Shown here one piece after another: positions 21,780 through 31,850 of a DNA stretch of 64,000 bases. The translations under genes and the position numbers were made by a program. Source of the stretch: Diphasiastrum complanatum (lineage: Eukaryota; Streptophyta; Lycopodiopsida; Lycopodiales; Lycopodiaceae); assembly GCA_029204225.1 (NCBI GenBank), contig CM055105.1, forward strand, positions 14,933,132-14,997,131. The letters are read 5' to 3'. Every line of letters begins with the position of its first letter. Position 1 is the first letter of the stretch. A model generated the notes under the pieces. It was not told the origin of the DNA. It searched no databases and was given only the letters and a program-made list of their open reading frames with translations.

Positions 21780-24110
21780 AAATGAAAAAAAAGCATTTGG
21801 TCAAAAATGAATTTATTGTGAAAGTACTGTACTTTAGGACCATAAATGAATCTACAAAAGATCCACAAGAGTGATTGGATGCTTGCTTAACAATCTATCA
21901 AAAAACTAGATACAAAAAAGTTGATCTAGATTGGCAATTTGACAAACAACAAGCATTAACAATCAAAAGCATTGATCAACATTGAAATCCGAACCCACAC
22001 GTGTGTACTACAAGCTGTAGTACGGCCTTCAACCTGAGAAACAAGTAGAAATTGATTTGGTTTCATTTGGATCACAAAAACTCAATGTACATAGTGAACT
22101 AGCTTGAGATTGCCAATGAGCTCCAAAAATTTTCTATCTTCTCACTATGGAGAGAGAGAATACATAGCAAATTCAACTTTCTTCTTGAAGTTAGGTGGAT
22201 TTCCAGCATGTAATAAGGAAGTTAACTCACTCTCCTTGACCTAAAATGAAACCCTAGTCTATTTCTCAGAGTTATGCTTGGTAGGTAGCTAGTTGGTCAA
22301 ATTTTCACCTTAAACTTAGGTGTAGGTCCTATAAAGTAGGGATGACCACCAAATAGACATGACCAACTCTCTTGACTTGACCTAACCTACATTAGGATGT
22401 GTTTCCCATGTGGCATCATGGCCTCACATGTGTGGGACCCACTTGTATACACAATTTACACTATTCTACATGGTTTTTGATCAAGCTAGATTTGCCAATT
22501 TTTGGCAATTCTTCACATTTATTTCAAAAATTCACATTGATACATTTTGTCAATCTACGTGGCATTTCTTATAAGGTTCTTTTTTGGATTCAAAATTCCT
22601 CTAATGTTATCTTGGGCTACTACTTGTGTTTGGAGTGCAATTGTGTGTGTGTGTGTGTGTGTGTGTGTTTCTTTTTCCACATCTCTTAATGGATCTCCAC
22701 AGGGGAAGTAGAAATTTGAACACATTAGGGAGTTGTAGAAAATAAATCATATTGAGTGATGAGGTATGGGAGCACATTAATAGTATTAGCACCTAATAGT
22801 TCTAGTTTTTTAACCATGTGGGTTACCAACAATTATCAAGCTAATTAGTTGAACTAATTTTTGCATTCAAACAAACAATCAGTTTAGTTCATTAATAGCT
22901 AAATCTTGGCTTGCAAAGTTTTGGGGGACTAACAAACTCCCTTTGTATAAATTCAAATGAAATGCATACTTTTTGCATTAATTCATTAGCTTTCACATGT
23001 TGCACTCTCTTGGTCTATTTCGTATGTTTTGTCAATTGCATGTGTTGTTATTTCTATGCATTTTGTTTGCAGGTCTATGCGATCTTCATTGTGCATAATT
23101 TGATCACTTGAGACAAGAAGTTCATTGGAACTTTTAAAGGACTTTTTTGTTTTTGAAATACTTTAGCATCATCTTTGGAACTTACTAATAGCTTAACTAT
23201 TATGGTGAAGTTCCTAGATAACCTTTCTACTAAACAACCAGATAATTATCAATGTAATTATCTACTCATTACCACTCTAATTATTGTCAATCAAATACTA
23301 GATTTTAATCAAATGGATGGATATTATCCAATCACGTTGACTTGTGTCAAGCTTCAATTATTGACCAATTCTTAAATGCATCTTGCAAAAAGCCTATAAT
23401 AGATTTATGATGCATCATTATCTTGACATTGACTTGCTACTTTTTTTGACAAAAATACCCAGAGAGTTCAACATGCCTTTACAAGCAAAATCAGTAGAGG
23501 AGCCAACTATTTGGCAATCAAATGCTTTTCATTAGGAAAAATATGGGCTCAAAATTGGTCTTTTAAAAAGTTTTGACTTTAGAGAGAGTTTACGTAGAGA
23601 GAGAATGGAAACCGGTAACGTTTGGTTGCCATTTTTTGAGTTTTCGATAATGCCCACATTCAAACTATTGTGGTTTATTAGCTCTAACTTCAGGAATTAA
23701 TTAGTTAAGCATGTTTGTAATAACGAAAGACGAAATTTCTCTACATGTTTCATCTGACTTGAAATCTTGGTATGCTCTTTGCAAAATATGTAGCGAGAGC
23801 ACTATGAGCTCAAATTTTTGTATGACGTTGGAGAATTCTGAACTCGACATAGCCAATACAAAGCCTGAGGTACCGATGATCAATCTTTTGAGACACTATA
23901 GTTTTCAACAATGGAAAAAATTCATTTGCAAGTTGCACTTCCTATGGAATGTTCTCCATTTTAAAAGGAGAATTCAAAAGTTGTAGAAAATGATGTTTCA
24001 TTGATTGAAGATTTGAGAAAAAAGAATCATTAGCATATAGATTTATGGGTAGACGGAACAATCTATCCTGAAGATCCAAGTATCAGTTTATGGGCAGATT
24101 TTAAGTCTAT
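21780..24110. other. Non-coding stretch with a (TG)n repeat
   Basis: No supported gene. (TG)13 lies at 22642-22668. Around 22140-22480 the wording (GGAGAGAGAGAATAC, then AGTTGGTCAAATTTTCACC) resembles the family B LTR regions at 7.9-8.2 and 31.3-31.8 kb, so part of this may be an old solo LTR. ORFs at 22911, 23175 and 23711 are short and AT-rich. Confidence 0.45.
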
Positions 24111-24114
24111 CAGT

Positions 24115-24550
24115 CATCTCCTTAGTATCTGAAGGACATAAAGGATTACTTGGATTCCCTGGATAGATGGCACCGAGAAAATGCCTACAACCACAAGCAA
24201 GGAGCTACGTGAATGGAGGGAGAAAAATGACAAGGCAGTAGCCGTGTTATCATCATCCATCGAGGATAGCCTGACTCTTGACCTGGATACACTCTCTAAA
24301 GCAAAAGAGATGTGGGATACACTACTCACAATATTTCAGACGAAATCATGCAGTCAGATAATGTTGTTCGAAGATCAACTGACAAACCTACAGTGGGATG
24401 GTAAAGACCTCACTTCCTTTATTAGGAGGATGAAGGATCTATTCCTTTCACTACACAATTCTGGAACAGAAAATATAGTATCAGCAGAGAAGCAGCTCAC
24501 TTATCTGTTGAGAGCCTTACCAAGATCCTTCCAGAAACCCTCCTCTCTCT
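24115..24550 (+). pseudogene. Copia family C gag fragment
   Basis: Open from about 24181. It encodes ELREWREKNDKAVAVLSSSI, then AKEMWDTLLTIFQTKSCSQI, FEDQLTNLQWDGKDLTSFI and LTYLLRALPRSFQ: the UBN2-type Copia gag core. It matches closely, block by block, the gag at 54.8-55.1 kb inside the complete element. It begins after the first gag helix and ends at LPRSFQ, followed by a CT-rich stretch. Zinc knuckle and later domains are absent. Confidence 0.85.
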
Positions 24551-24809
24551 CTCCCCCTCACCCACCTATAATGGTTAATATTGTTTTAACCTTTGTTTTG
24601 GAAAATCTAATTATTAATGGGTAATGAAACTTCACAATGCATTTAAAGTTTTGAGAATATTTAAATTAAAAGCTAATTATCAAGTAATGCATGTTACAAT
24701 ATTCTCAAATAACTTCAAGTTGAAAGTTCATAGTTATAGTATTTCACTTTCCATCTCTTTGAAACTTCAAAGTTCATAGACTTAAACTTCAAAGTTGAAG
24801 TTGTCAAAG

Positions 24810-26640
24810 CTTGCAAGATTTTGGCATGCATAATGCACAATTAATATATGCTAATCGACAATTACAGTATGCTTATCAACAATTGCAACTTTATGTGCAA
24901 CAGATTGTGAATGAAAACTTTGCACAGAAAGGCTCTATATTAGAACTAAATACAATAATCACTAGTCTTCGGAGCTCAAACCAAAATATGCTAGAATCAT
25001 TGGAGAAGTTACAATCTGAAAGTTTGAAATTTGTTTCTGATGTAGATCTTATCAAAACAACAATACTGAAAGGGAAAAGACAAAAGGATACCAAAAAGAA
25101 TATTGATGATTTATTAATACACAATGGCAATCAGAAGAAAAGAATTCGAGCTTTCAAGTATGACTGTTATTGAAGTTTGATTACAAATTGTTTATTTGAA
25201 CTTGTTACTTTTTGATATAGTTATATGCATTTATATGATTGAAGATTACTTGTTTTGTGTATTACAGATCATGCTTGGCAGCAAAGGACTATTTGAAAGA
25301 TCGTTCATGTATTGGAAAATCTTTAAGTTAAAAAATCTACAAGGGCATTGATAAAAAATTATCGATTTGAGAAGATGAAAAATGAAATTGCAGGGATGGT
25401 GGTCTTGAGTAAGGTGCAAACTTATTTAGATGCAAATGTAATACAAGGTGCATGTGATCAGGTTGGAGTTAGCAAAAATGCTTATTCCATTTTTTTTAGA
25501 TTGTAGTAAAGATTAAGAAAACTTATCTTCCTTGTCCATAAGTAAGATTAGCAAAAAAGTCAAGGGAATGTTCAAAGTGGTTGGCCAACCATTTCATATC
25601 ACTCTGAAATCATCAAGGGTCAAAAGTTGGAACGGGTGAGTATCACTTTGATGAGCAAAGTATCAAATGATCATACATTTGAGTTCAATAAAAAAATCAT
25701 ATTCGTGGATAGCAACATTCTAGGTACTTTTCTATGACGTGTTAATCACAATTATATGTCTTATAATTTGGATAAGTAACTAACAAAGTACACATTATTT
25801 GCTTTGTTATAGGTGTTGAAAGAAAATCATGAGTTCTATCATGGATAATTTCACGTACAAATTATGGAAAGATCATAAAATAACATATGGAGGGTCAAAA
25901 ACTTACTGTGGAAAATCATGATAGTTTTCAAATTCAATGGCACCTTGCAGGCGATTTGAAAACGTTGAAATGCATGTATAATATTTCTCATGGGGCAACA
26001 TCTAAGCATCCATGTATTTACTACATGAAAGATTGCTATGATATGAATGTGGGACAAACAAACAATGGTCCAACAAGAGAACTAGAATATTCAAATCTGA
26101 AATGTGTTTTGCCGATACCCTTAAAATATGTACACATATGCACATTGCATGCTGAGGTACGTATTATTAAAAAGCTTATTTATCCTCATATTTTATTTGT
26201 TTGGAATACAAGATCAGAGTCTTTGACCAAATTAGCTATCACGAGGTTGGGGGAAATTATTTCAAAAGCAGGACTACATAAAAGAAATGTCACAATTGAG
26301 AAAAGTGATAGACTGTCAGGAAAATCAGAAAATGTTTCTAATAAGCCATCAATTAGGGGTTCTTAAGCAAGAAATTTTTTATCCAATCACACTTGCAAAG
26401 ATTCTAGTGCCAAGTATGAAATTTGGAAAGAAATTGTTTTAGCCACATAGAATTTTGAGAACAAAGGAAGTACACGAATGCAAAAGGCACAAGTGTGGAA
26501 GAATTTTGACACACTCGTAGGTGTTATTGGAAAGGAACACTTATCATCAGAAGATATCAGTTCTATACAAAAGCATTGCACCACATTTGTCAAATCTGTA
26601 CGAGATTGTTGGGAAAAAGATCACGTTACATTATAGAACG
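24810..26640 (+). pseudogene. Decayed gene with a transposase-like motif set (unknown family)
   Basis: The first part (24811-25173) is an open Gln/Asn/Leu-rich frame that should form a coiled coil. A second coding-like piece lies at about 25340-25505 (FEKMKNEIAGMVVLSKVQTY, then GACDQVGVSKNAYSIFF). The best part is 25887-26366 (159 codons): AGDLKTLKCMYNISHGATSK followed by HPCIYY, then YVHICTLHAEVRI and LSGKSENVSNKPSI; after a stop the frame continues to about 26630 (WKNFDTLVGVIGKEHL). From memory, the order 'GD.K.L....G..S..PC.YC ... H....H...R' recalls multi-copy uncharacterised proteins of cnidarians and other eukaryotes that look like transposases: an acidic residue, a zinc pair and a late His. 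The second Cys of the pair is Tyr here. Function is inferred only. It lies 1.1 kb upstream of the H3-Ulp1 gene on the same strand. Confidence 0.45.
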
Positions 26641-27145
26641 AGAGATAGTTTGCTCAAACTCTGAAGCCATTGATGTTTAAGCTTCAACACCTATATCATT
26701 ATCTAGTTCATCTACTTCAATTGGAACATATGCAAAAGCTTCAATTAAGGGAACAAAAGAAGATATAGAAGACAAACGCCATACCTTTGATAAGAAGGCG
26801 ACAACTTCTATTGTGGACATTGCCATATGTATTTATTTTAAAGTACTCGTGTAGATTCGAGTACTTTTTGTCATGTTTGTGCTTAGCAAATGGCTGTGAA
26901 TGTACTAGGTCATGGAATTGAACGAAACTAAAAGTGTCTACATTTATAACAATAGTGATAATTTGAGAAAAATTATCAAAAAGAGCAAGTAATTTCGAAT
27001 GATTCTCATAAATAAGCTTATCGATATCAAAAGGGCCAAAAAAGAGAAAAAAAAATACTCAAATTTGTCAAATGGAATGTCACTAGCTTTAAAAAACTCT
27101 CTAATATTATCTTTTGTAGACCATGAGAAATTGGCCATAGTGACG
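26640..27145. other. Spacer with a 10 bp perfect hairpin
   Basis: Non-coding except for a short minus frame (27138-26944, starting MANFSWSTKDNIREFF) that I do not recognise. AAAGTACTCG (26840-26849) and CGAGTACTTT (26858-26867) form a perfect stem with an 8-base loop, just after the transposase-like gene. Confidence 0.5.
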
Positions 27146-27786: not shown

Positions 27787-28190
27787 ATGGTGAGGACAAA
27801 GCAGATTGCGCAAATTCATTTTGGTGGTGTCCCATTGCATGCAGGCCACCAGGGAAATCCACCACCGCAATGCCCTCTACTACCGCCTCCTAGGCCAAGG
27901 GGCAGATCATGTGATTCGTCATGGTTGAAGGACATTCGGAAACTACAGAAGAGTAATGATATTCTAATTCCTAAAGCTCATATCCAGCGATCAATCAAAT
28001 AGGTCACAATAAGTATGTCGAGAGATGTGAGATGGACAATCACAACAATTGAAGCTCTACACACAGCCTATGAGGATTTCCAAGTAAAAAACTTTTCAGA
28101 TTGTGTTTTTTCAGTTGGTCATGCCAAGCGGGTGACTATTGTGCCCAAGGATTTCACGATTGTGTTCAAGCTACGAGACACATATGACAA
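27787..28190 (+). pseudogene. Histone H3-like module with CENH3-like features
   Basis: From ATG 27787: MVRTKQIAQIHFGG keeps the H3 N-terminus (R2, T3, K4, Q5, A7, G12, G13) but replaces R8, K9, S10 and T11. A Pro-rich tail of nearly canonical length follows, then LKDIRKLQKSNDILIPKAHI (H3 'LREIRRYQKSTELLI'), and QR. After the TAG at 28000 come DVRWTITTIEALHTAYEDF (alpha-2 start) and VGHAKRVTIVPKDF (H3 'AIHAKRVTIMPKDI'). The fold aligns to H3 without a gap from alpha-N to the C-terminal helix. LIP, RWT before alpha-2, A-x-E-D and KDF recall plant CENH3, from memory. The nucleosomal C-terminal IRGERA is replaced by a basic extension (KKKRKQSQPTR, then VSKRRRS) that looks like a nuclear signal. 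Confidence 0.8.
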
Positions 28191-28599
28191 GTTTGCTGAG
28201 TGCTTCCGACCAGCTCCGTCCTTGCCTCCAAAACCAGCAGCTGAAAAGAAAAAGCGGAAGCAATCTCAACCGACCCGACTTGTATTTCGGGTGCAGAGTG
28301 AGCGTGTCTCAAAGAGGAGGAGGTCTCTTGGCACTCCTTAAAAAGCCAGAGATTTTTCACAGATGTCTCCATTCAAGGATATCATGAGAGCAATTTCCTC
28401 TTCTCATAAATCTCCTTCCAAATCTTCTTCTCCTTCTCCTCCTAAATCTCCTAAAGCTTCTTCTCAAGCTCCTCATAAAACTCCTCCTACATTTCCGCCT
28501 ATTACGTCCCCCCTTCCACCATCAAGAGCAGAGTTAGAACAATTTATAAAATTAAAGGTCGACTCGTTTTTTTATGACAATTCAGTTTTGGGTTTTTAG

Positions 28600-29789
28600 T
28601 ATCACTTCCTGCACCCCCTAGACTTACATTTGTAGATTCTCCAAAATATTTACAGTATGACTAATTACTTTCTACACATCTTAAATCTCTAGGTATATTT
28701 TACAATTTTCAAATGCCACGTACCAAAATTAATCATCTCCTTAGCAAATTAGATACAGATGAATTAGAAAATAAAGATAACATGTTAGGAGATAATGTAG
28801 GAGCGTGGGCCATTCAATATTGGTTGGAGGTTTTTCAAACTCCAATTCTTGTAGATGTCGCATTGTTTCCTATGCAATTTATGAGTGCTTTCCACTTCCC
28901 CGATTTTGACACCTTGCACTCTGAGATGATGAAAAACATCAGAGAGGGGACTCCATTGCTCGTGCTCCCGTACATACACAAGTGTATGCTTGTCACATTT
29001 AATAAGTTGATTTTTCATATGAATTGTGATTTTACCTATAGTCTAAAAAACATACTGATTTCTGATTGCAGTGGCCACTGGAGCTTATATGCTTTGTGTT
29101 TATATCTCAATGATGAGGGTGTGTGTGATCCGATTTGTATAAAGATGAACTCTATTACACACACCCACAAAGAAGCGAAGAGCCTTAAGAAGACAATGTT
29201 GGAACTCTTTCCAGTGCCAGGTGCAATAATAGCCTATACAAAGCTTAAAATGTTTGATGCAAAGTTATTTTTTATTTGATATCGATTTGATGCGCGCTTG
29301 TTTCTTTTGTATTTTTCAATTTAATCACATGCGCGTTGATTCGATATATCATATACTTTTTCTACACAAAATTTTGTTTCTAACCTTCATATATATTTGA
29401 ACACTACAATCCTCCCAACAGACTGACTATGTTAGCTGTGGCTGGTATATGATATACAATGCCAAACATTATTTAAATTGGCTTGCACAACGTGATAAGC
29501 TTCCGAAATGGCTTGAGATAATCTATTTATTCACAATCACAATCACATATTCATAATTCTCAATCACTTATTCTTGATTAATACCATGTGCTTGTGTTTT
29601 TGTTTTTTGTAGTTCTCTTGCCCGAAGGTCTCTCCGAAGGAGATAATGCATTTCTGGCATGAGACAATAAAATTTGTTATCAAAGATTCATTTGCAGCTT
29701 CAATTACACATTCTTCACCAAAGTTACTTCCATCTGAAGAAATGGAGATAGAGATCATAGAAAAGAAAGACCCTCAACTTGAACAATGA
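28600..29789 (+). pseudogene. Ulp1/SENP-type cysteine peptidase (C48 family), three exons
   Basis: Exon 1 begins in frame near 28600 (LPAPPRLTFVDSPKYL) and continues 28713-29213. It contains VGAWAIQYWLEVF, the catalytic His in GHWSLYAL (CAC 29076-29078) and CIKMNSITHTHKE, where the family has Asp ('.DS..G.H') but AAC (29148-29150) gives Asn. Exon 2 (29422-29517) starts after CCTCCCAACAG and encodes TDYVSCGWYMIYNAKHYLNW, with the catalytic Cys at TGT 29437. Its donor reads GAG|ATAATC, one base off a GT donor. Exon 3 (29613-29789) follows TTTTTTGTAG and encodes FSCPKVSPKEIMHFWHE to a TGA. All three junctions fit phase 0 if exon 1 ends at CCA|GTGCCA. The family removes SUMO or related modifiers and is often carried by plant MULE and CACTA transposons. 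The Asp-to-Asn change and donor loss suggest inactivity. Confidence 0.78.
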
Positions 29790-29988: not shown

Positions 29989-30386
29989 TCAGTCATTTTT
30001 ATCAGAAATATATGTGTGAGCATTAAAAAAAATTCCTGACTCTAAAAGGAATTTTGGAAAACGACCTTTATATTGCAAATTATTGATATCAGAATGTATG
30101 ACATCAATTATTCTTGCAATACATTGAACTACTTGCCATTCAATGAAATTTGATGATATAAATCTGCAAAACCAACACAAATATCGTGGAAAAAATTTAA
30201 GATAAAGAAAATACTAATACTAAGGAAATCTAATCTGAATATGTACATACTAATCATATACTTACAATTGCATTTTATTCTATCATCTGGATTCGAATCC
30301 TGACTGTTGAGCACTCTGTGAAGATAAGCATCCTTAACTAAAACTTTCACGATAAATTGACCGACAACTGATACTTTGAAATCCAT
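29989..30386 (-). pseudogene. Unrecognised two-exon-like coding remnant
   Basis: On the minus strand, ATG 30386 opens MDFKVSVVGQFIVKVLVKDA, then HRVLNSQDSNPDDRIKCN, ending at a strong donor consensus (AATT|GTAAGT near 30262). After an AT-rich gap, an acceptor TTTTGCAG (about 30160) precedes a 60-codon open frame with SSNFIEWQVVQCIARIIDVI and YKGRFPKFLLESGIFF, closed at 29989. The simple splice puts the second part in another frame, so the gene is either damaged or spliced differently. I do not recognise the family. It is convergent with the H3-Ulp1 gene and could belong to the same cassette. Confidence 0.4.
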
Positions 30387-30409
30387 TATCCTTCCTTTCC
30401 AAGAGCTTC

Positions 30410-31850
30410 TATATACGTTATCCGAGAATTAGAAGATACTCCATCCTTACCTTCCAAATAGAATAATTGGAGGTAGATAATCTCTCACTTGATTCCAATA
30501 GGAAGGAACCCATGGAAGCCATAAAAAATATAATTGACTTCAAAGAGTTGTTTCTCTCTCAATAATGGATCCAATAAAGGTATGCTACCAACTCCAAGAT
30601 GAGATCTTGCAACTAGGTGTGAAATCAATCTCACTAGCTCTACCAATCTCTCTCAAACTAGATCAAAATCTCACTCAAGTATGAAGTATGGACAAAGTTT
30701 GGGTCAACACTTTTCAAGCACGTGAAAAGCACTCAAAAAGTCCACAAATCACTCAAATACAATTGGATTGCATGAAACAATGTGACTAGGACCTCAAAAA
30801 ATTGTCTAGATCTCAAATAGACTAGATTGGCAAGCTTTTTCTTGAATTTTTGGATCAAACAAGCAAGATAGAGATCAAACAAAATGTGTCCAACCAGGTT
30901 GGGTGCCCTACCCACCTTGATTCAATTGGCTATAACTTTTGATTGGAAGATCCAATTGATATGGAACCAGTCGCTACACAATCTTGACTCTACTAGCTTT
31001 CTAGCAAGCTATCTAGCATGGATTTTGGATCTAAATTGGAAGAGAACCATCCTTCACACAGTTTTGAGCACTAAGATCCGTACAATACCAGATCAAGTCC
31101 AATTAATATGATAGTGAACCTTTTTGATCCAAAAATCTCAAAGATAGTAAGGGAGATGCAATCTACATTCTCTAGATCTTGATTTCAAGGCAAATTTTCA
31201 CACATAACTTGATAGATGTATGGATATCTTAGGTAGGCTCTGATACCATGCTGAATTTCACACGTGTGTGATAATGATCTCCTAAGACTTGGTGATTGCA
31301 CAAAGATCAAACATAGATTGATAACTAAGATCTATCTAAAAAAACTAAGGCAAGAGCAATTGATTGCATGCATATATCAATCAAACAAGTACATACACGT
31401 GTGGAGGCTTGGACTTGAAAAAAATAAGTATGAAAAGTCCTTGCTCTCGGGTAGAGAGAGAATCCAACTATCAAGCCTCGGGTAGAGAGAGGGAGAAAAA
31501 AATCCAATATGACTCAAAAATGTAAAAATCTCATTAACTCTCAAAAATTCAAGTACATAATGAACCTATCCATCCTTCTGATAGGAACTTGTGGTAGAGG
31601 ATGCTCAAATCTTATTGGGCCCCCATTTCTCCTCCTCTAAATGTGATTGGATGAGTGACTTAAGACTCCTCTAATTTGATTGGACTATCTTAATGAAAAT
31701 CTCTCTTTTGATTGGTCTCTTGACCTCATGCCAATACTTAGGAATTGGTCACTCATCAAATCTAATTAGGAGACTTGTAGCAAGCCTGACTAGCTCGAGC
31801 CACGTCACAAATCACTTTGGGCCTAATCATGGAAACACAAGTGTATTTGC
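30410..31850 (-). mobile_element. Copia family B 5' end: LTR, primer-binding site, gag start
   Basis: Reading the minus strand: LTR-like sequence from about 31850 to 31255 (ends GTGTGAAATTCA), then a primer-binding site (TGGTATCAGAGC at 31248-31237). After ~750 bp of leader comes a gag start at about 30490 (TSNYSIWKVRMEYL) that matches the family B gag at 10.7 kb. Similarity stops near 30410, so the rest is deleted. The LTR carries CTCGGGTAGAGAGAG twice (about 31445-31490), a motif shared with the LTR at 7.9-8.2 kb. Confidence 0.78.
31237..31248 (-). promoter_or_regulatory. Primer-binding site (tRNA-iMet) of Copia family B
   Basis: GCTCTGATACCA on the plus strand is the exact reverse complement of TGGTATCAGAGC. 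It fixes the orientation of the element and the LTR edge at about 31255. Confidence 0.88.

Follow-up and report, generated by a model that had tools for sequence, protein, structure and literature searches.

A transposon-borne H3-like gene is already known from a fungus. In Pyrenophora tritici-repentis, a TIR-bearing hAT DNA transposon carries an H3-like open reading frame, H3L, which has been amplified with the element to 26 H3L genes and which, according to its authors, is neither H3 nor CenH3 (PMC3538342). The plant system described here likewise pairs a TIR-bearing, amplified DNA transposon with an H3-like gene that falls in neither group; however, the fungal gene is a separate, unfused open reading frame accompanied by a hAT transposase, present in tens of copies, with no peptidase described in the available part of that paper (PMC3538342). 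Histones have also been described from viruses, where the available text, unlike the locus reported here, includes no Ulp1 fusion (PMC9145170).

The other half of the gene has its own precedents. Ulp1 domains occur in plant DNA transposons of the VANDAL/KIU type of Mutator-like elements, and an anti-silencing activity, VANC, has been reported for VANDAL elements; the accessible portions of these reports mention no histone, and the transposase and termini differ from those found here (PMC13317346, PMC10398659). Ginger1 transposons likewise bear a Ulp1 fusion (a C-terminal Ulp1 or OTU domain), but fused to the transposase, and the word "histone" is absent from the main text of the source (PMC2836005), as it is from the main text of a 2026 review of plant transposon gene capture (PMC13317346). 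Among the titles and abstract openings listed in searches of an open-access library, no H3-Ulp1 fusion, no H3-bearing transposon in plants, and no transposon-borne histone beyond the fungal hAT H3L were found.

With regard to the element itself, two further comparisons are informative. As far as the available text describes them, CMCT transposases (EnSpm/CACTA, Mirage, Chapaev, Transib, Plavaka, ESTA and Lanisha) share a D, D, E set of residues, the last two of which flank C(2)C and H(3-4)H motifs, and most members have CA..TG termini; the present element is similar in these features, whereas CMCT transposons generate 2-5 bp target-site duplications and this one generated 0 bp at both of its empty sites (PMC12730594). 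Insertion without target-site duplication has been described for Spy, although Spy has a PIF/Harbinger-related transposase and prefers AAATTT according to the part of the paper available, while Pfam recognized no transposase of that kind in the pieces scanned here (PMC4482050). What is new is the fusion, the plant host, the scale and the type of element.

Architecture of the locus

The sequence analyzed, hereafter the window, is a 64,000-nt stretch of Diphasiastrum complanatum (GCA_029204225.1, contig CM055105.1, 14,933,132-14,997,131, forward strand), and all positions refer to it unless stated otherwise. Sequence inspection, Pfam and comparison with relatives show that 27787-29520 holds a decayed copy of a gene encoding a tail and core resembling those of H3, then a basic linker and pieces of an Ulp1/C48 peptidase. 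MVRTKQIAQIHFGG begins at the ATG at 27787 of this copy. The features recognized are as follows:

24019..26630, + strand: gene 1, putative transposase, in broken pieces (24019-24156, 24802-25158, 25333-25503, 25603-25689, 25833-26201, 26289-26630), from tblastn
26762..26953, - strand: fragment of gene 2, no assigned function, from tblastn to F-A gene 2 (E 4.3e-5)
27787..27915, + strand: H3-like N-terminal tail, MVRTKQIAQI..., with K4 kept and Ile at K9, from sequence
27916..28176, + strand: H3 histone core with one in-frame TAG (28000-28002), from Pfam Histone (34.6 bits, post-TAG part) and the tree
28177..28599, + strand: basic Lys/Pro/Ser linker with a TAA (28339-28341), from sequence
28665..28981, + strand: N-terminal part of the peptidase region, in another frame, ending ...VLPYIH at a predicted GT donor, from genome-wide matches of a 91-aa piece (28713-28985)
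29072..29222, + strand: peptidase exon with the catalytic His (GHWSLYAL), start predicted, from tblastn to F-A and F-C exons, with C48 assigned via relatives
29419..29520, + strand: peptidase exon with Gln and the catalytic Cys (QTDYVSCGW), from tblastn to F-A exon 3
29992..30141, - strand: fragment of gene 4, second part, from tblastn to F-A (E 9e-11)
30237..30413, - strand: fragment of gene 4, first part, no assigned function, from tblastn to F-A (E 5.6e-13)

The first-pass annotation had described an H3 N-terminus and a gapless H3 core, followed, past two stops within the frame and a small frameshift, by a C48 peptidase with His and Cys in place, and each of these elements was recovered. 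The core aligns to host H3 without gaps and contains LIP, RWT and KDF. The 112-aa half after the TAG matches Pfam Histone (E 2.6e-8, cut-off 26.4 bits), while the 71 aa before it reach 16.2 bits, under the cut-off; a fold model of the H3 part with the TAG read as Gln was poor (pLDDT 38.8). H3 and linker share one frame, interrupted by the TAG and the TAA, and the peptidase lies in a different one: its offset from H3 is 710 bp, no multiple of 3, versus 723 and 711, both multiples of three, in two open relatives. The His (GHW, near 29072) and the Cys lie on separate exons, the two peptidase introns being predicted from GT/AG signals and relatives. The peptidase piece of the window alone had no match in Pfam.

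Genome-wide copies and the H3-Ulp1 fusion

The 1.74-Gb genome of the host plant was searched for further copies. With the Pfam Histone profile, 6325 first-look candidates and at least 153 matches were obtained; among the matches listed, the first 13 were canonical H3 (163.7-165 bits), the last three were partial (83-84 bits), and the rest scored 95-110 bits. Twenty of the 95-110-bit loci, taken mostly for their long open frames, comprised eight of family F-A, eleven of F-B and one of F-C, and each has further copies in the genome. Near-identical loci also occur (L032/L033, L013/L028 and L019/L025). A 293-aa F-C query yielded 8594 candidates, and nearly all of the 134 scored matches cover roughly residues 1-288, well beyond the H3 core; many of these copies contain stops.

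Whether the two halves belong together was addressed by searching with each of them separately. The H3 half of the window family gave 5344 candidates, of which the best 150 were scored, and the 91-aa Ulp1 piece gave 1379 first-look candidates, of which the best 150 were scored, every one at 114 bits or more. Between these two sets of best 150 places there are 22 pairs no more than 2 kb apart; in each, the two parts share a strand and H3 precedes Ulp1 by 634-802 bp. No pair shows any other arrangement, and 0.013 pairs would be expected under uniform placement; some of the 22 pairs are duplicates of each other (e.g., C8 and C430). At two places, C17:3696177/3696900 and C16:5763660/5764371, both halves report one stop-free open frame, of 417 and 378 aa, respectively. 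F-A has a frame of 331 aa that leads through H3 into the peptidase, and six of the eight copies contain no stop in it. The junction that had been proposed from the window alone is therefore borne out by other copies of the same order, and the count of H3-then-Ulp1 neighbors within 2 kb that had been suggested as a check, run here on the host genome, did not return the outcome named as fatal to it, namely that the two are never adjacent elsewhere. An H3 retro-copy that landed by chance beside an old Ulp1 gene, as the break between the two parts in the window copy might suggest, is extremely improbable, since 22 co-located pairs in a fixed order, against 0.013 expected, and two single open frames exclude chance as the cause of the adjacency. 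It is almost certain that an H3-linker-Ulp1 fusion is carried by a mobile element.

By eye, TAG is the commonest internal stop among the genome-wide H3-Ulp1 copies, as expected if CAG turns into TAG where CHG is methylated; this would be a sign of the host silencing these copies.

Transposon structure, insertion and class

The suggestion that the gene belongs to a mobile element is supported by inverted repeats and empty sites in relatives. Two related copies, on C2 and C7, are DNA transposons of 9.3 and 8.7 kb, bounded by inverted repeats of about 35 bp (CATTAG...CTAATG) that are perfect in the C7 copy and imperfect in the C2 copy. Allowing up to two mismatches, the F-A terminus occurs at 990 + 1034 places in the host genome and the F-B terminus at 858 + 836, compared with 0 for the control. 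No termini of the window copy itself were found. When the two flanks of the C2 copy were joined and used as a query, every one of the 40 places scored, out of 1443 candidates, was Copia sequence matched over a span as long as that of the query, so insertion occurred with neither duplication nor deletion; no gap was seen at this empty site in either of the two alignments viewed. A second empty site also gave a 0-bp duplication, with the limitation that most of its 34 matches share only 7 left-flank bases and two are the element's own flanks. Among nine terminus pairs, two share 3 flanking bases and one shares 2. L014:1-8410 and L064 represent this CMCT-like group of DNA transposons that insert without target-site duplication.

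The F-A element contains, in order, a transposase-like gene (+), gene 2 (-), H3-Ulp1 (+) and gene 4 (-), and pieces of all four are present in identical order in the window copy. F-B is arranged with gene 4 first and the transposase-like gene last, on the opposite strand. Gene 4 is kept in F-A (L014:7600-7992, -), F-B (L018:2141-2590, +) and the window family (29992-30413, -), with no recognized domain; a BAH domain suspected by eye was dropped, as Pfam and PDB gave no support.

Gene 1 of the window matches F-A and L021 proteins (best tblastn E 1.3e-42, 58% over 123 aa). The F-A protein shows, by eye, the motifs LKLDES, GDLKTLK, CLYC, HVCTLH and QGMEKSH, with matching pieces in F-B, in the order D, D, C(2)C, H(4)H, E, which, read by eye, agrees with the CMCT definition. 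The window gene retains GDLKTLK and HICTLH but has CIYY at the C(2)C position. The relatives' termini (CATTAG...CTAATG) are of the 5'-CA..TG-3' type, while the 2-5 bp duplication of CMCT elements is missing at the two empty sites. No convincing Pfam match was obtained for the gene 1 pieces and no PDB match for one transposase piece, and IMG/VR contained no relatives of one transposase piece or of the F-A H3-Ulp1 frame. The window copy is best explained as a degenerate DNA transposon with a putative CMCT-like transposase gene (CACTA/EnSpm-Mirage-Chapaev-Transib group).

Two other classes were compared and did not fit. CACTA/EnSpm elements have CACTA ends, a 3-bp duplication and a tnp2 Pfam match, and the present element has other ends, no 3-bp duplication and, in the pieces scanned, no tnp2 match. 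Mutator/VANDAL elements have a long duplication and a MULE transposase Pfam match, neither of which was seen here in the pieces scanned.

The peptidase part

Assignment to the C48 peptidases rests on relatives. When spliced, L014 matches Pfam Peptidase_C48 (PF02902) at E 4e-7 (30.5 bits, cut-off 20.7), and five of seven peptidase members match PF02902 at E values of 5 or lower; one member is a composite of two copies. A seven-row peptidase profile searched against PDB matched three sentrin-specific protease sequences weakly (E 0.017-0.031). Within F-A, the first Ulp1 exon is present in all eight loci, the His exon in seven, and the Cys exon with its Cys in four (L012, L014, L023 and L026); Tyr replaces the Cys in two loci and it is absent from the other two. 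In F-C, the His exon, the Cys exon or both occur in six of eight loci, several with lost catalytic letters: Cys-Ala is seen instead of Cys-Gly, L034 has Phe at the Cys position, and L038 has Asn at the His position. His, Gln and Cys can be read in the window and in some of the copies, and Asn (KMNS/KLNS) stands, as judged by eye, where the catalytic Asp would be expected. Across the 11 F-B loci, tblastn matched no Ulp1 exon.

The histone part

The observation that the tail lacks K9 extends well beyond the window. K9 of the conserved ARTKQTARKS H3 tail is missing from all 28 tails read, being replaced by Asp in F-A (8/8), Ala in F-C (8/8), Asp (10/11) or Gly (1/11) in F-B, and Ile in the window, whereas K4 is kept in 25 of 28 (7/8 in F-A, 6/8 in F-C, 11/11 in F-B, and the window). 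In the core, H113, K115, R116, T118 and D123 are retained in eight aligned transposon rows and in the window, of which H113 and D123 belong to the H3-H3' contact. L014 scores 95.3 bits against Pfam Histone, and the 60 listed of 175 PDB matches all carry names of histone H3 or histone-domain proteins. F-B histones have a long extra region between the tail and the histone core; this very long N-terminal region (L018:4140-5096 and other F-B loci) includes a Pro run and the conserved stretch MKFLDEELAASGELP.

An unrooted tree was built from 29 rows (26 different) and 96 columns, with CENH3 represented by three plant sequences and F-B by rows that leave out L018, one of the seven chosen, owing to a length filter. 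Host H3 forms one group (99/95, starred) and the three CENH3s another (95/88, starred) that includes no transposon rows; F-A, F-B, F-C and the window lie opposite both (92/86, not starred). The window groups with F-C on a long branch (99/97, starred). A starred branch (98/96) places F-B together with H3 and CENH3, apart from F-A and F-C, so the tree does not establish a single H3 capture for all families. As placed in this unrooted tree, the transposon H3 part falls inside neither host H3 nor the three plant CENH3s.

The leaning towards CENH3 that the first-pass annotation had read from LIP, RWT and KDF is not supported by the tree, in which the three CENH3s group alone, although the unrooted tree permits a sister relation. 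CENH3-like letters (IP.APF, AED, KDF) occur in part of the rows, and none of them is common to all eight transposon rows and both aligned CENH3s but absent from H3. No host CENH3 gene was apparent among the best 150 scored places, which comprise 13 canonical H3 genes followed by H3-like sequences at 69-77 bits.

Selective constraint and possible roles

Constraint was assessed by pooled pairwise Nei-Gojobori dN/dS values. The F-A copies had been obtained via the histone profile and the F-C copies chosen on the whole protein, so that F-C is the fairer set. The H3 core gave 0.27 in F-A and 0.34 in F-C (bootstrap ranges 0.15-0.47 and 0.21-0.57), the linker 0.73 and 0.72 (0.43-1.29 and 0.42-1.35), and the tail 0.63 and 0.36; the linker exceeded the core in 0.9975 (F-A) and 0.9775 (F-C) of bootstraps. 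The H3 core is under purifying selection. For the peptidase part, constraint is not clear in F-A (0.67, no better than the linker), and the last 70 residues in F-C gave 0.41.

Plants silence transposons via H3K9me2 and CHG methylation acting in a loop. The best overall explanation, to which slightly less than an even chance is given, is a CMCT-like transposon whose H3 variant-linker-Ulp1/C48 gene counters this silencing. The H3 core would pair with H4 and then enter or dock on nucleosomes; the tail, lacking K9, would be unable to take H3K9 methylation; the attached peptidase would free silencing factors at chromatin of SUMO or a similar modifier; and together they could weaken H3K9me2/CHG-methylation silencing of the element. 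That a K9-less H3 takes a SUMO-type protease to chromatin in this way is a tentative proposal. Confidence is reduced because the peptidase is weakly constrained and has lost its Cys or His in some copies; moreover, the loss of K9 could be drift, and in the 11 F-B loci, which have H3, no Ulp1 was found. A broader version, in which the K9-less H3 replaces host H3 on element copies to form a transposon-made chromatin, most of the families seen also deliver a SUMO-type protease so that the H3K9me2-CHG loop is blocked, and the plant CMCT-like and fungal hAT histones arose independently, is doubtful.

The histone could instead be a passenger, a captured host H3 gene carried without function. Plant transposons commonly capture pieces of host genes, according to the available text of a recent review (PMC13317346), many copies here have stops, and F-B is possibly a separate capture. 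Against this, four divergent families all retain the H3 core, its dN/dS is well under that of the linker in the two families tested, and K9 is gone from every tail read, which makes a passenger unlikely.

A role in targeting, in which an H3 module, perhaps of CENH3 stock, tethers integration to centromeres or heterochromatin while Ulp1 clears the site, is improbable, though it gains some weight from the tree being unrooted and hence compatible with a CENH3 sister relation, and from the partial resemblance in IP.APF, AED and KDF. Exact F-A termini are bunched on C1, where 42 of the 83 listed fall in two stretches (64.9-66.7 and 95.0-100.7 Mb) versus 6 expected; a centromere, a knob or local amplification may each be compatible with this pattern. 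However, F-B shows less clustering on C1 (6 of its 35 listed termini in the same stretches), the F-A termini among those listed for part of C2 appear even by eye, and the transposon rows fall outside the starred group of the three plant CENH3s. Still less probable is a decoy, that is, a protein that sequesters H4, histone chaperones or K4 readers without entering nucleosomes: the core residues are retained while the tail and C-terminus are un-H3-like, as a decoy might have them, but the fused peptidase would be left unexplained.

If the anti-silencing explanation is correct, the fusion of a core-histone variant with a SUMO-type protease would give parasitic DNA a new weapon against epigenetic silencing. 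The families would form a natural experiment in which K9 has been removed and K4 mostly retained, permitting a sharp test of whether an element-encoded K9-less H3 breaks the H3K9me2-CHG methylation loop, and they point to a group of CMCT-like transposons that insert without duplication. In annotation, many H3-like matches in such a genome should be expected to be transposons. Smaller derivatives also appear to exist, since two F-B termini that lie just 1.1 kb from each other (C1:67871296-67872435) likely delimit a short non-autonomous element.
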